From assembly GCF_001747105.1 (NCBI RefSeq), contig NZ_MDGQ01000005.1, forward strand, positions 434,001 through 498,000: 64,000 nucleotides of DNA, in the 5' to 3' direction. Under the pieces are notes generated by a model that saw only the letters and a program-made list of their open reading frames with translations, ran no database searches and was not told the DNA's origin. The stretch comes from Roseivirga misakiensis. GTDB lineage: Bacteria > Bacteroidota > Bacteroidia > Cytophagales > Cyclobacteriaceae. A program made the position numbers and the translations under genes. Each line of letters opens with the position of its first letter. Within the stretch, counting starts at the first letter, position 1. Below are positions 35,620 through 41,880 of the stretch, piece by piece.

Positions 35620-36147
35620 TTAACCACCAAAACATTCCATATAATGTCTCAAGAAGCTAAATTTATTGTCATTATCCTCATAAAATGAGGCAGAAGAGTA
35701 TTGATACTGGACAAAATCGTCAGCAAGGTTCCATTTGCCACTGACTGGATTAGCATGTATATAGTTTAACTTTTGCTCTAACATATTTCTGCTTAATAGG
35801 TCTATAGACAAAGCGTTTCTTTGCCAAAACTGATACCTTCTGTCTTTTAAGTTTACCTCGAATTTAGAAAGTAAGTGAGGGTTGTGCTTTTGTAAATGAA
35901 ACTTGATCTGTTGTCCAGTAAACTTAAGGAAATCCCGTTGTACATCTTTGAGAAGGTGTTTGTTCGATATTCTCCAAATTAAATGAATATGATTTGGCAT
36001 AATCACGAAGCCATAGACTCTGACTCTATTCTCCTTACACAGGTATGTAAGTGAATCAATGATGACCTGTTTATTGTGGTGGTCATATAATGCTGGTATC
36101 CATTGATATATAGTAGCTGTAAAAAATTGAATACCATGTGTGTGCAC
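35620..36147 (-). CDS. REP-associated tyrosine transposase (RAYT, IS200/IS605-like)
   Basis: 175 aa. HUH motif N52-H53-I-H55-LIW and the catalytic tyrosine in LNYIHANPV (Y129) define the Y1 transposase family that acts on single-stranded REP hairpins. GTG start: a TGA two codons upstream in frame leaves no alternative. The gene is bracketed by inverted REP-like hairpins (R1 downstream, R2 upstream), the usual RAYT arrangement, and appears intact. A 79-nt copy of its 3' end occurs at 37286-37364. Confidence 0.92.
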   Translation of the reverse strand: MHTHGIQFFTATIYQWIPALYDHHNKQVIIDSLTYLCKENRVRVYGFVIMPNHIHLIWRISNKHLLKDVQRDFLKFTGQQIKFHLQKHNPHLLSKFEVNLKDRRYQFWQRNALSIDLLSRNMLEQKLNYIHANPVSGKWNLADDFVQYQYSSASFYEDNDNKFSFLRHYMECFGG

Positions 36148-37285: not shown

Positions 37286-37364
37286 TTAACCACCAAAACA
37301 TTCCATATAATGTCTCAAGAAGCTAAATTTATTCTCATTATCCTCATAAAATGAGGCAGAAGAG
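37286..37364 (-). pseudogene. 3' remnant of a second RAYT transposase gene
   Basis: 79 nt match the last 26 codons of the RAYT gene (35620-35698), including the TAA stop; the encoded end ...NKFSFLRHYMECFGG is unchanged apart from one Asp-to-Glu. Similarity stops abruptly at 37364. With R4 it shows that a second RAYT copy, or a partial duplication, was once here. Confidence 0.85.
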
Positions 37365-37399
37365 ATTCGCCGGTTAATAAAATCTTTTGATAGGCGGGC

Positions 37400-37429
37400 T
37401 TGTGGAATTATAAGCGACAACTATCTTTG
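37400..37429 (+). promoter_or_regulatory. Promoter of the his operon
   Basis: TTG at 37400-37402, 19 nt, then TATCTTTG at 37422-37429: this fits the Bacteroidota -33/-7 consensus TTG-N19-TAnnTTTG. Transcription would begin about 37434-37437, at or just before the leader peptide ATG. Confidence 0.7.
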
Positions 37430-37435
37430 CACTCG

Positions 37436-37501
37436 ATGTACGCAAATTCACATATCGCACCCAGCGCAGCTTATGCACATCATTTCCATCATCTCGGTTG
37501 A
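37436..37501 (+). CDS. hisL: His operon leader peptide
   Basis: 21 codons plus TGA, starting ATG 37436, 7 nt after the -7 box. The peptide begins MYANSH and ends AYAHHFHHLG: five histidines in 21 residues, four of them within HHFHH near the end. The reading frame stops 90 nt before hisG. This is the arrangement of a his attenuator leader, where ribosome stalling at His codons senses charged tRNA-His. A hairpin CATCTC-GGTT-GAGATG (37490-37505) covers the stop codon and the last His codon, and imperfect pairing is possible between 37457-37469 and 37524-37535. No U-run terminator is seen, so the mechanism may be non-classical. Confidence 0.78.
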   Translation: MYANSHIAPSAAYAHHFHHLG

Positions 37502-37590
37502 GATGTATATAAAACTATGTGGCCTACGCGGTCGCAAGAATTCCCAACTTTCTTAAATCATTTTACACTAATTACAGTTCTTACATCCAG

Positions 37591-38451
37591 ATGGATAATA
37601 CATTACGCATAGCAGTACAGAAAAAGGGTCGTTTGAGTGATGATTCTTTAAAACTTATAAAAGAGTGTGGCATCAAATTCAACAATGGTGCGGGCAAGTT
37701 AAAGGCCAATTCAACCAACTTTCCAATGGAATTTCTCTTCCTTAGAGATGATGATATTCCCGGTTATGTTCAAGATGGTATTGCCGATATTGGTATAGTT
37801 GGAGGCAATGAGGCAGAGGAGAAAAATAAGGATGTCGATACGGTTAAAAACCTTGGGTTCTCTAAATGCAGATTATCGTTAGCGATCGATAAAAACGAAA
37901 CATATAATGGAGTTGAAGACTTCGAGGGCAGGAGCCTAGCTACATCATATCCAAAGATTCTCGGAGATTACCTCAAATCGAAAAATGTCAACGCCGAAAT
38001 TAACGAAATCAGTGGTTCAGTTGAAATTGCACCAAGTATCGGTTTAGCTTATGGTATCTGTGATATAGTCAGTTCGGGGTCCACACTTTTGAGCAATGGC
38101 TTAAAAGAAGTAGAGGTGATCTACAAGTCGGAAGCTGTACTTTTGGCGAATAAAAATCTAAGTGCTGAAAAACGCGAGATTCTTGATCGTTTTATCTTTA
38201 GAATTGAGTCGGTACAAGCCGCAAAAAACAACAAATATATCTTAATGAATGTGCCGAACGAGTCTGTTCAGCAGATCATTGATATACTTCCGGGTATGAA
38301 AAGCCCAACAGTTATGCCATTGGCCGATGAAGGCTGGAGTTCTGTGCATACTGTTATTCAAGAAGACGATTTTTGGGAAATTATTGAAGCATTGAGAGGT
38401 GCTGGGGCAGAAGGTATATTGGTGGTGCCAATCGAAAAAATGATCTTATGA
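37591..38451 (+). CDS. hisG: ATP phosphoribosyltransferase, long form (HisG)
   Basis: 286 aa from ATG 37591 (MDNTLRIAVQKKGRL). A GTG extension at 37519 is rejected because it would translate the leader region. First enzyme of histidine synthesis, joining ATP and PRPP. PKILGDYLKSKNV and GSVEIAPSIGLAYGICDIVSSGSTL form the catalytic domains; the last ~75 residues (KYILMNVPNESVQQIIDILPGMKSPTVMPL) are the regulatory ACT-like HisG_C domain of the long, feedback-inhibited form. Its stop overlaps hisD by ATGA. Confidence 0.97.
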   Translation: MDNTLRIAVQKKGRLSDDSLKLIKECGIKFNNGAGKLKANSTNFPMEFLFLRDDDIPGYVQDGIADIGIVGGNEAEEKNKDVDTVKNLGFSKCRLSLAIDKNETYNGVEDFEGRSLATSYPKILGDYLKSKNVNAEINEISGSVEIAPSIGLAYGICDIVSSGSTLLSNGLKEVEVIYKSEAVLLANKNLSAEKREILDRFIFRIESVQAAKNNKYILMNVPNESVQQIIDILPGMKSPTVMPLADEGWSSVHTVIQEDDFWEIIEALRGAGAEGILVVPIEKMIL

Positions 38452-39737
38452 AAACAGTAGTTAACCCTGTAAAGTCTACATGGTCGGAGCTACTGGCCAG
38501 GCCAACCATGGACTTGGAATCGATAGAGGGATTGGTAAGACCGGTGATGGAGTCAGTTCAGTCTCGTGGTGATTCAGCATTACGCGAGTTCACTGAGAAA
38601 TTTGATGGCGTTTCTTTGTCAGATCTACAGGTTACGACAGAGGAGATTAGTCAAGCGATCAGCCAAGTGGATGATGATTTAAAGGCAGCGATTTCTATTG
38701 CTAAAAAGAACATTGAGACCTTTCACCAAGCACAAAAAGACGATTTCGTGAAGGTGGAAACAATGCCTGGAGTCAATTGCTTCAGGAAGTCTGTTGGGAT
38801 AGATAAAGTAGGTTTATATATCCCGGGAGGCACCGCGCCGCTATTTTCTACAGTATTGATGTTGGCTGTACCGGCTAAAATTGCTGGCTCTCGGGAGCTT
38901 GTACTTTGTACCCCTCCTGATAAAAGTGGCAATGTTCATCCAGCCATACTTTATACGGCACAATTGGTCGGCATCGAAAAAATCTTCAAAGTTGGTGGAG
39001 CTCAAGCTGTTGCCGCTATGACTTTCGGAACAGAAACTATACCTCAAGTATACAAGATTTTTGGGCCAGGGAATCAATATGTCACAGCGGCCAAGCAATT
39101 GGCTATGAAATACGGTGTGGCTATCGATATGCCCGCAGGCCCTTCGGAAGTTGCAGTTTACGCCGATGAATCAGCAGTGCCAGCCTTTGTAGCGGCAGAT
39201 TTACTTTCTCAGGCCGAACATGGTGTGGATTCACAAGTCGTTTTGGTCGCTTCTTCAGAAGAGATCGTCAATGAGGTGAAAGCCGAAGTTGCTGATCAGT
39301 TAAAGACATTGCCGAGGGCAGAGTTTGCCGAAAAAGCCTTGTCAAATAGTATCGCGATCGTGTTGTCTGACGAAGATCAAGCGATTGATTTGTTAAATGA
39401 ATATGGGGCAGAGCACTTGATTCTTTCGGTCAAGAAACCCTGGGGAGTTGCCAATCGCATTGTAAATGCTGGCTCGGTCTTTTTGGGTAATTATACGCCA
39501 GAATCGGCGGGAGATTATGCGTCAGGCACCAATCACACCTTACCGACAAATGGCTATGCTAAAATGTATAGCGGTGTTTCACTTGATAGTTTCGTGAAAA
39601 AGATAACATACCAAGAAATTACGCCGCAGGGTCTTTCTGTTTTGGGGCCAGTGGTGGAAACTATGGCTGCTGCGGAGGAATTAGAAGCACATAAAAACGC
39701 GGTTACCTTAAGGTTAAATGAGATTAATAATGTTTGA
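38448..39737 (+). CDS. hisD: Histidinol dehydrogenase
   Basis: 429 aa, normal length. Catalyses the last two oxidations from L-histidinol to L-histidine with NAD+ and zinc. Motifs: GLYIPGGTAPLFSTVLML, GPGNQYVTAAKQLA, DMPAGPSEVAVYAD, and LLSQAEHGVDSQ with the catalytic Glu/His; GTNHTLPTNGYA near the end. 4-nt overlap with hisG and 8-nt overlap with hisC. Confidence 0.98.
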   Translation: MKTVVNPVKSTWSELLARPTMDLESIEGLVRPVMESVQSRGDSALREFTEKFDGVSLSDLQVTTEEISQAISQVDDDLKAAISIAKKNIETFHQAQKDDFVKVETMPGVNCFRKSVGIDKVGLYIPGGTAPLFSTVLMLAVPAKIAGSRELVLCTPPDKSGNVHPAILYTAQLVGIEKIFKVGGAQAVAAMTFGTETIPQVYKIFGPGNQYVTAAKQLAMKYGVAIDMPAGPSEVAVYADESAVPAFVAADLLSQAEHGVDSQVVLVASSEEIVNEVKAEVADQLKTLPRAEFAEKALSNSIAIVLSDEDQAIDLLNEYGAEHLILSVKKPWGVANRIVNAGSVFLGNYTPESAGDYASGTNHTLPTNGYAKMYSGVSLDSFVKKITYQEITPQGLSVLGPVVETMAAAEELEAHKNAVTLRLNEINNV

Positions 39738-40779
39738 TCCTAACGAACTTTTAAGACCTCATCTGAAAAATTTGGTGCCATATTCTTCGGCTAGAGAAGA
39801 TTATAAAGGCAGTGAAGGTGTCTTTTTAGATGCGAACGAGAATCCTTTTGGGTCGATTACCGAAGAGAATTGGAACCGATACCCAGACCCATATCAAGTA
39901 AAATTGAAAGGTCGAATTGGCGAGATTAAATCTGTCAGTGCCGATCGCATTTTCCTAGGAAATGGAAGCGACGAACCGATCGATTTACTGTTTAGGGCTT
40001 TCTGCGAACCTGGTGTCGATAATGTGATTATCAATCCGCCGACTTATGGTATGTATAAGGTGAGCGCCGACATTAATAACGTTGAAGCCCGCGAAGTATT
40101 AATGACGCGAGACTTCGACCTAGATGTAGATGGCATTCGACAAGCCATAGATGATCAGACTAAAATCGTATTTATCTGTTCGCCAAATAATCCTTCGGGC
40201 AACGATGTTGATTTAACCAAGATTGAGGCCATATTGAAGGAATTCAATGGGTTAGTAGTCATCGATGAGGCCTATATTGATTTCACTGAAAGAGCTTCTT
40301 TTATCGATCGCTTAGATGAGTTTCCTAACCTAATTGTGCTACAAACTTTTAGTAAAGCTTGGGGATTGGCAGCACTTCGTTTGGGAATGGCCTTTTGTTC
40401 GAAGGAAGTCTTAAATGTTTTGAATAAGATAAAGGCACCTTACAACTTGAGTGGCCTCACTCAAGAAACTGTTTTTGAAGCTTTGAAAGATGTGAAGCGA
40501 AAAGATGATATGGTGAGGGACATTTTGGTGAATAAAGAGACACTGAAGGTCGCTTTAGAAGGTTTGGAACGAATAGAAAAAGTATATCCTTCAGATGCGA
40601 ATTTTTTCTTAGTAAAAACGCGCAAGGCACGTCAACTTTACGAAGATTTAATTGGGCACCAAGTCATATTAAGAGATCGCTCAAAAGTAGCTCTTTGCGA
40701 AGAGGGTATTAGAATTACGGTTGGAACAAAATCTGAGAACAGGATTTTAATCCAGACTTTGAAGGAAATAGGCAATTAA
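39730..40779 (+). CDS. hisC: Histidinol-phosphate aminotransferase
   Basis: 349 aa from ATG 39730 (MFDPNELLRPHLKNLVPY); an ATG four codons earlier (39718) is possible. Class I/II PLP aminotransferase converting imidazole-acetol phosphate to histidinol phosphate. Visible are DANENPFG, FICSPNNPSGN, VVIDEAYIDF and the PLP lysine in QTFSKAWGLAALRLG. Overlaps the end of hisD by 8 nt and is followed by hisB after 3 nt. Confidence 0.97.
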   Translation: MFDPNELLRPHLKNLVPYSSAREDYKGSEGVFLDANENPFGSITEENWNRYPDPYQVKLKGRIGEIKSVSADRIFLGNGSDEPIDLLFRAFCEPGVDNVIINPPTYGMYKVSADINNVEAREVLMTRDFDLDVDGIRQAIDDQTKIVFICSPNNPSGNDVDLTKIEAILKEFNGLVVIDEAYIDFTERASFIDRLDEFPNLIVLQTFSKAWGLAALRLGMAFCSKEVLNVLNKIKAPYNLSGLTQETVFEALKDVKRKDDMVRDILVNKETLKVALEGLERIEKVYPSDANFFLVKTRKARQLYEDLIGHQVILRDRSKVALCEEGIRITVGTKSENRILIQTLKEIGN

Positions 40780-40782
40780 AGA

Positions 40783-41880
40783 ATGAAAAAGGTACTTTTT
40801 ATAGATAGGGACGGTACAATAATCGTTGAACCACCAATAGATTTTCAGGTTGATTCTTTGGAGAAACTCGAGTTTTTACCGGGAGCAATTTCTAACCTTA
40901 GAAAAATTGCTGAACAGCTCGATTTTGAATTGGTCATGGTGACAAATCAAGACGGTTTGGGCTCAGATTCTTTTCCAGAAGATACCTTTTGGCCTGCTCA
41001 GAACAAAATGTTGAAAACACTCGAAGGGGAAGGCGTGGTTTTCAATGAAATATGCATTGATCGTACTTTTGAAGCAGAAAATGCCCCAACCCGTAAGCCT
41101 AGAACAGGACTATTGACGAATTACTTGGAAGGCGATTATGATCTAGCCAATTCCTACGTTTTAGGAGATAGAAAAACGGATATTCAACTAGCCGAAAACT
41201 TAGGAGCGAGAGCGATATTTATATCAGAAGAATCCGATAAACGTGCTGCACTTTCCACAACTAGTTGGGATGAAATTTTCAGTTACTTACAAATGCCAGC
41301 ACGGACTGCTGAAATTCATCGTGTAACAAAAGAGACTGATATTCTCATACACTTGAATTTAGATGGTACTGGGCAGTGTGATAATGATACGGGTTTAGGC
41401 TTCTTCGATCATATGCTAGATCAGCTGGGGAAACATTCGGGAGCCGATTTGACGGTCAAAGTAAAGGGAGATTTACATATAGATGAGCATCATACGATTG
41501 AAGACACAGCCCTTGCGCTGGGTGAAGCTTATTTAGAGGCGATTGGCGATAAAAAGGGAATTAATCGATATGGTTTCCTATTGCCAATGGATGAAGCACT
41601 TGCCCAAGTTGCCATCGATTTTAGTGGTCGGCCGTGGTTGGTTTGGGAAGCTGATTTCAAACGAGAAAAGGTGGGTGACATGCCGACAGAAATGTTTATG
41701 CACTTTTTCAAGTCATTTTCTGACACCTCAAAATCTAACCTAAACATTAAAGTTGAGGGGGATAACGAGCACCATAAAATCGAGGCTATCTTTAAAGCTT
41801 TTGCCAAGGCGATCAAAATGGCAATAAAAAGAAACCCAGATGAGCTCGATATTCTACCGAGTACAAAAGGGTTACTCTAA
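40783..41880 (+). CDS. hisB: Bifunctional histidinol-phosphatase/imidazoleglycerol-phosphate dehydratase
   Basis: 365 aa. N-terminal HAD phosphatase ([10 protein letters not shown]8 and D10; [20 protein letters not shown]) fused to C-terminal IGPD ([55 protein letters not shown]) with its manganese-binding histidines. The fused form is known from Enterobacteria and Bacteroidota. The his cluster ends here; hisH, hisA, hisF and hisI do not follow. Confidence 0.98.

Follow-up and report, generated by a model that had tools for sequence, protein, structure and literature searches.

Introduction

The textbook view of attenuation comes mostly from bacteria that have Shine-Dalgarno sites and U-run terminators. 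In the classical his attenuators of Proteobacteria, whose Rfam family is presumably His_leader (RF00514), a His-rich peptide precedes hisG, as it does at the locus described here, and stalling-based sensing is likewise to be expected. At tnaC, as we propose for our locus below, whether a short leader ORF is translated influences termination by Rho. The comparative survey of bacterial attenuation by Lopatovskaya et al. in 2010 is said to cover Bacteroidetes.

Within the phylum, the available text of PMC9723704 gives strong indications that amino-acid operons of F. psychrophilum are preceded by leader-peptide attenuators, and describes a structured 5′ element at hisG that is conserved in other Flavobacteriaceae and, in that text, has no Rfam match. 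Leader-peptide control of hisG in Flavobacteriaceae is, to that extent, already published, and our locus shares with it the phylum, the gene and the leader-peptide clues; a U-run terminator is present at one Flavobacteriaceae locus of our sample (L036), whereas the genus studied here lacks one. Short ORFs reminiscent of leader peptides occur in long 5′ UTRs of B. thetaiotaomicron (PMC7366714, available text). According to the accessible part of PMC2965389, His leader peptides precede hisS-type genes in bacilli, and as of 2010 none were known outside Proteobacteria and Actinobacteria. Two more distant systems are also relevant. The mycobacterial polycysteine attenuators, to go by the title of Canestrari et al. 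2020, are likewise leaderless short ORFs with runs of the sensed codon, but the amino acid and the phylum are different. In the E. coli topAI leader, translation of the short uORF toiL also affects Rho-dependent ending; according to the available text of PMC12121999, however, toiL senses antibiotics and stalling there unmasks the next ribosome site, whereas at our locus we only infer Rho. No paper on a his leader in the present lineage was found in the openly accessible literature.

Here we describe a conserved amino-acid sensor in a phylum generally without Shine-Dalgarno sites; its predicted start is at the 5′ end of the RNA, and one lineage lacks the terminator. Unlike the classical his attenuators, it has a predicted near-leaderless start and no Rfam match, and our searches showed no general antiterminator.

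Results

A conserved His-rich leader peptide precedes hisGDCB

The window analysed here is a 64,000-nt stretch of the Roseivirga misakiensis genome. A sequence-only reading had proposed that it contains a his operon headed by a His-rich leader peptide. Profile matches above cut-off identify the downstream genes as hisGDCB (Table 1), and relatives whose hisG is 91–92% identical are recorded as Roseivirga; one of these relatives shares an identical region 5′ of hisG with a genome of the genus group of the window. The leader ORF was read directly in the sequence as claimed, with 21 codons and five His, one early and four in the HHFHH cluster; its stop lies 89 nt from the hisG ATG. Further upstream, on the minus strand of the window at 35620–36147, is a REP-associated tyrosine transposase-like gene (75.2 bits, cut-off 80).

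Table 1. Features of the his leader and operon, in window positions.
Feature	Position	Strand	Details
Sigma-A (Bacteroidota type) promoter	37400..37429	+	TTG 37400-37402, 19-nt spacer, TATCTTTG 37422-37429
His leader peptide ORF, MYANSHIAPSAAYAHHFHHLG	37436..37501	+	21 codons, ATG 37436, TGA 37499-37501
C-rich, G-poor leader RNA, candidate Rho loading region	37436..37590	+	26% C, 14% G
Regulatory codon cluster CAT CAT TTC CAT CAT (HHFHH)	37478..37492	+	sequence
Hairpin H1, CATCTC-GGTT-GAGATG	37490..37505	+	6 bp, -6.0 kcal/mol
Hairpin H2, GTGGCC-TACGC-GGTCGC	37519..37535	+	6 bp, -6.9 kcal/mol, no U-run behind
hisG, ATP phosphoribosyltransferase	37591..38451	+	TIGR00070 and TIGR03455 above cut-off; ATG at 37591
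hisD, histidinol dehydrogenase	38448..39737	+	TIGR00069 above cut-off
hisC, histidinol-phosphate transaminase	39718..40779	+	TIGR01141 above cut-off
hisB, bifunctional histidinol-phosphatase / imidazoleglycerol-phosphate dehydratase	40783..41880	+	NF003937 above cut-off

Regions upstream of hisG were collected from 19 genomes of the genus, from 148 family genomes, of which 138 have hisG, from 47 loci (6 in Pasteurellaceae) returned by scanning named genomes, and from 296 genomes across the phylum (252 with hisG; 30 became loci, some of which were in the sample before, and 40 more were fetched). One family genome, G069, was left out because its hisG is interrupted at a contig end. Of 267 regions in total, 24 were dropped as identical over 150 nt to another, leaving 243 distinct regions, and with the 6 Pasteurellaceae regions set apart the Bacteroidota sample comprises 237.

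The proposed leader peptide is kept in relatives, a prediction of the sequence-only reading that we put to the test. At least 4 His within 8 codons were found upstream of hisG in 188 of the 237 distinct Bacteroidota regions, compared with 29 of 4860 shuffled regions (0.6%); fewer than 3 His in 8 codons, counted as misses, occurred in 24 of 237. By set, the frequencies were 18/19 in the genus, 99/127 in the family, 26/29 in the scan and 45/62 in the phylum. When the window region alone was shuffled, a short ORF reaching this His density no more than 300 nt from hisG appeared in 1.06% of 5000 shuffles. Within the genus the motif HHxHHL is kept in 15 of 19 leaders, the exceptions being L002, L011, L012 and L040. 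The window thus has what defines a classical attenuator on the sensing side, a run of His codons in a short ORF directly 5′ of the first his gene, and we regard the element as very probably a His-sensing leader peptide.

The U-run terminator is missing in the genus and in many relatives

Terminators between leader and hisG were scored as a hairpin of at least 5 bp, at -5 kcal/mol or lower, followed by a T tract; those with a hairpin at -9 kcal/mol or better were called canonical. The scan covered 218 leaders, reduced to 217 on removal of L103, in which the wrong ORF had been picked. At the window leader the absence of a U-run noted previously was borne out, as the hairpin/T-tract search returned nothing and a second tool gave 0 hits in 37380–37620. 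The Pasteurellaceae his loci (L042–L047), by comparison, have a U-run terminator in 6 of 6 cases. At the -5 criterion terminators were found in 42/54 phylum, 19/26 scan, 37/119 family and 1/19 genus leaders. Canonical terminators are present in 93 of 217 leaders, in 35 of the 137 from genus and family together, and in 0 of 19 from the genus. The sole genus match at -5 is L093, where TTTTTCTT comes after CTGGC-loop-GCCAG (-7.5 kcal/mol). Elsewhere in the window, U-run terminators were found at 4 of 27 gene ends. The window had no Rfam match at the gathering threshold, and 37350–37650 had none at E values up to 1.

When the 88 leaders with full hisG (32 with a terminator) were placed on a quick tree, which has a weak backbone and leaves 129 mostly short stretches unplaced, the trait required 2 changes, compared with 26 when labels were shuffled. 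In some members of other families, L222–L225 and L246–L249 among them, the criterion gave no canonical terminator either, and the terminator-less state is therefore not limited to the lineage of the window. Two of these leaders, L247 and L248, are long and His-rich with a predicted near-leaderless GTG start. A different arrangement was seen at L039, where two tandem His-codon stretches, each with its own terminator-like hairpin, lie from about 350 to 100 nt 5′ of hisG.

The trp leader served as a control in the same genomes. A WWW peptide precedes trpE in 16 of 16 genus genomes examined, and a U-run terminator accompanies 16 of 17 WWW leaders (the 16 of the genus plus one order relative), that of the window's genome included; in the 17th, the assumed, misassigned trpE start falls inside the hairpin. 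The second tool detects the trp terminator of the window's genome and none in its his leader. By promoter box, the trp leader is near-leaderless in 8 of 16 genus genomes, again including that of the window. In the latter (L324, contig C5 near 2172532, minus strand), the leader reads MKMTNRNNAWWWHVTEIR and is followed by a textbook terminator before trpE. With the classical form present in many relatives and also at the trp leader of this genome, the leader set amounts to a natural experiment on how the output of an attenuator can change when the input is kept. A search for similar leaders in relatives, at 20 loci of ilvD and 28 of homoserine dehydrogenase, gave no consistent picture. In the genus member L273 a short ORF rich in Ile and Val, MKQLTVIISVIIISPSG, ends 209 nt before ilvD; it was not seen at the other ilvD loci.

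The leader is predicted to start near the RNA 5′ end and to stop close to its last His codon

The promoter TTG-N19-TATCTTTG that had been proposed upstream of the leader ORF was verified in the sequence at the coordinates of Table 1. In Flavobacterium johnsoniae the last G of the TAnnTTTG box lies at -5 (PMC6847099, available text). Taking the last box G as -5 in the same way predicts a transcription start at 37434, 2 nt before the leader ATG, so that translation of the leader would begin near-leaderless, at the 5′ end of the RNA.

This arrangement recurs in relatives. We called a leader near-leaderless when a perfect TA(not G)(not G)TTTG box placed the predicted start 0–7 nt before an in-frame ATG or GTG, and found 106 such cases among 217 leaders, including 19/19 in the genus. 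Frequencies were 61/83 for terminator-less family leaders, 10/22 for other terminator-less leaders and 16/93 for terminator-bearing ones. With the upstream 130 nt shuffled the same spacing was seen in 0.5%, and for hisG's own start in 1 of 217. Otherwise only a minority of the phylum's mRNAs are leaderless or near-leaderless, judging by the figures in the accessible parts of three reports: 5.5% leaderless mRNAs in F. psychrophilum (PMC9723704), about 3.7% of mRNAs with a 5′ UTR under 10 nt in B. thetaiotaomicron (PMC7366714), and about 13% of 5′ UTRs at 10 nt or less, with 87% longer, in F. johnsoniae (PMC6847099). A second box was noticed in a sister clade (L051–L076), most of whose members have TATATTGC within the last 15 nt, immediately 5′ of the hisG ATG. 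It matches TAnnTTGY, which the available text of PMC9723704 attributes to an alternative sigma factor; a second promoter at this place would make hisG leaderless there.

The leader stop also differs in position between the classes. It falls no more than 2 residues past the last His in 87 of 102 terminator-less leaders of genus and family and in 13 of 22 other terminator-less leaders, as opposed to 8 of 93 terminator-bearing ones. A stop so close to the last His is as expected if the ribosome no longer needs to halt further along and cover a second RNA segment.

One hairpin covers the leader stop, and a second, H2, covaries in the genus

The hairpin previously described over the last His codon and the stop was found at 37490–37505 (H1). 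Its 5′ arm holds the last His codon, and the stop codon lies at the loop and 3′ arm. Folding energies of the stop region were unusually low (z < -2) in 17/19 genus and 35/83 terminator-less family leaders, compared with 4/22 other terminator-less and 4/93 terminator-bearing leaders. Enclosure of the stop in some short hairpin is about as frequent in shuffles (19/19 versus 17 in the genus, 80/83 versus 74 in the family), and leaders are separated from shuffles at the stop by the energy z-score only. The whole leader RNA (37434–37560) is not unusually stable (z = -0.85).

Covarying stems had been named as a feature to look for in relatives, and one of the two hairpins shows covariation. The inner four pairs of H1 are invariant in 19/19 genus members and the outer pair is kept in 12/19, a pattern in which covariation is not assessable. 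H2, a hairpin that the sequence-only reading did not contain, covaries across the genus, with changes on both sides at 5 of its 6 pairs. H1 and H2 together gave a covariation score of 0.345 in the genus versus 0.161 when shuffled, and 0 of 500 shuffles scored as high; measured as further pair types, covariation was not above shuffles (196/500). The position of H2 after the stop is similar even in L005–L007, whose hisG is more distant. In the sister-clade alignment A2, the consensus structure of 23 of 30 sequences contains H1 only and shows no covariation, and H2 is unproven in this clade. Members of A2 (L051–L108) carry an almost invariant ATATCGCCC between H1 and the next segment, outside the predicted pairs.

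Mutually exclusive pairing of the antiterminator type was not found in the window, nor generally in the genus. The alternative pairing of 37457–37469 with 37524–37535 suggested from the sequence is included in the best leader-to-downstream duplex of the window, but this duplex does not stand out from shuffles (p = 0.74). Leader-to-downstream duplexes reached p <= 0.05 in 3/19 genus members (L008, L012 and L091), which use other segments. An antiterminator formed by the H1 3′ arm was likewise rejected, being found at p <= 0.05 in only 1/19 genus and 2/82 terminator-less family leaders, and in 1/22 other terminator-less and 7/93 terminator-bearing leaders.

Terminator-less leaders are C-rich and G-poor

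High C:G ratio and YC content are features of rut sites, and Rho also needs ribosome-free RNA (PMC12121999, available text). A rho gene is present in the genome (one match over cut-off, E = 5.7e-36). Family members differed in the C minus G of their leader ORF, with 0.139 in terminator-less and 0.063 in terminator-bearing leaders (p = 2e-10), although part of this skew is forced, because His codons (CAY) are themselves C-rich. After the stop the values were 0.087 and 0.012; with the terminator hairpin removed, this difference was weak (p = 0.018). No difference within the family was found in the 120 nt upstream or in the first 60 nt of hisG, and across all lineages the first 60 nt of hisG also differ (p = 0.014). 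In the genus, the C:G ratio and the content of YC dinucleotides are both higher in his than in trp leaders (p ~5e-7). All these p-values overstate the evidence, the sequences being related, and much of the contrast may reflect one or two evolutionary events. Among the 22 intergenic 5′ regions of the window, itself included, the his leader ranks only sixth by its best 78-nt C:G ratio.

Discussion

We read the locus as a histidine-responsive, ribosome-mediated attenuator of hisGDCB in which a classical sensor is joined to a non-classical readout, most likely Rho-dependent, and give this reading a probability of roughly 0.4. On the same tentative footing, the lineage may have swapped its his readout and kept the sensor, with a near-leaderless peptide and a stop hairpin leading to non-intrinsic, probably Rho-dependent attenuation. 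We infer leaderless initiation, stalling, Rho action and the direction of control as follows. Transcription would start about 2 nt before the leader AUG, and a ribosome would load onto the 5′ end of the transcript with no Shine-Dalgarno site to guide it. When histidyl-tRNA is scarce it would stall on HHFHH, covering the H1 5′ arm and the C-rich leader, and RNA polymerase would proceed into hisG. The footprint of a ribosome reaches about 12–15 nt ahead of the A site; a stall at any of the four His codons in HHFHH should cover the H1 5′ arm, because that arm begins with the last of them. When histidine is plentiful, the 21 codons would be completed and the ribosome released at the stop, 2 residues past the last His. 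H1 could then close, the C-rich, G-poor leader RNA would be exposed, and transcription would end before or in early hisG. An open H1 would in this way signify a stalled ribosome and a closed H1 one that has departed. As our searches returned no intrinsic terminator, Rho is the most likely agent, and H2 may be the pause or end point. If this is true, the same cell runs two attenuation machines for two amino acids, a non-intrinsic one for his and a textbook terminator for trp. The leader set also gives a defined place at which a possible role of Rho in Bacteroidota can be tested.

Beyond the C-rich nature of His codons, the weak post-stop difference, the relatedness of the sequences and the sixth rank of the window's leader, two features argue against Rho. 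H2 is conserved in the genus and is unneeded by a pure Rho model, and the gap from leader stop to hisG, 89 nt in the window and 39 nt in L117, is short for separate loading and stopping zones. A rival reading is that H2 itself is a U-less terminator, perhaps with NusA or NusG, and that H1 is a pause hairpin synchronising ribosome and polymerase. The two-sided changes at 5 of 6 H2 pairs, its similar place after the stop even in L005–L007, and the short hairpin with T tract in L093 all favour this reading. We nonetheless consider it unlikely, as the H2 stem has only 6 bp and -6.9 kcal/mol, the same genome uses U-run terminators at trp and at 4 of 27 gene ends in the window, and an alternative pairing partner is not general in the genus (leader-downstream 3/19, H1 3′ arm 1/19); moreover, several terminator-less family leaders lack H2 by eye, and the space between stop and hisG can be as little as 39 nt (L117). 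L093 also bears on whether the locus might be a classical attenuator whose terminator our criteria, being thresholds, have missed, or a relic in decay that has lost its regulatory function. Both parts of this proposal meet opposing evidence, in that the second tool sees no terminator-like site in the window stretch yet detects the one at trp, and the retention of HHxHHL in 15/19 and of the inner H1 pairs in 19/19 genus leaders amid divergence is unlike decay; we judge it improbable.

The sequence-only reading had suggested that control might act on translation of hisG. The state of the leader would then set initiation through masking of the start or re-initiation after the leader stop. Simulated stalling argues against masking, which we rejected: the median change in opening energy of the hisG start region was 0.13 kcal/mol over the 19 genus members and 0.00 in 84 terminator-less family leaders. 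Shifts above 1 kcal/mol occurred in both directions, with 2/19 opening and 1/19 closing in the genus, and 8 opening and 12 closing in the family. Apart from the two genus members that open, translational control draws on the full leader fold of the window, which pairs the leader start with the segment just 5′ of hisG, and on L002, L003 and L078, which by eye are capable of the same leader-start pairing. This pairing of the window was, however, not seen in other genus members, and about 184 nt separate the leader stop from hisG in L005–L007, so that we hold control at this level to be quite unlikely, though not as improbable as a missed terminator or relic. Equally improbable as the latter, in our estimate, is RNA processing or stability control, in which H1 or H2 shields hisG mRNA from RNases or exposes it according to ribosome position; what speaks for it is the pair of hairpins close to the 5′ end, neither of them followed by a U-run.

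Pairing of the leader start in terminator-less relatives

A long-range helix between the leader start and the segment after the stop was tested in the 155 of 217 leaders whose predicted 5′ UTR does not exceed 16 nt and whose box matches in 5 or more of 6 letters. It reached p <= 0.05 in 1/18 in the genus and was excluded from the explanation of the window. In the terminator-less family leaders it reached p <= 0.05 in 21/74 with the leader start shuffled and in 18/74 with the leader starts of other species as the control. By the same two controls the counts were 4 and 5 of 12 for other terminator-less leaders and 1 and 4 of 51 for terminator-bearing ones. The leader start can pair with the post-stop segment in terminator-less family members, for example L122, L132, L141, L143 and L152. 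In L143 the pairing extends to as much as 14 bp, and pairing of this kind might shut the leader to new ribosomes.
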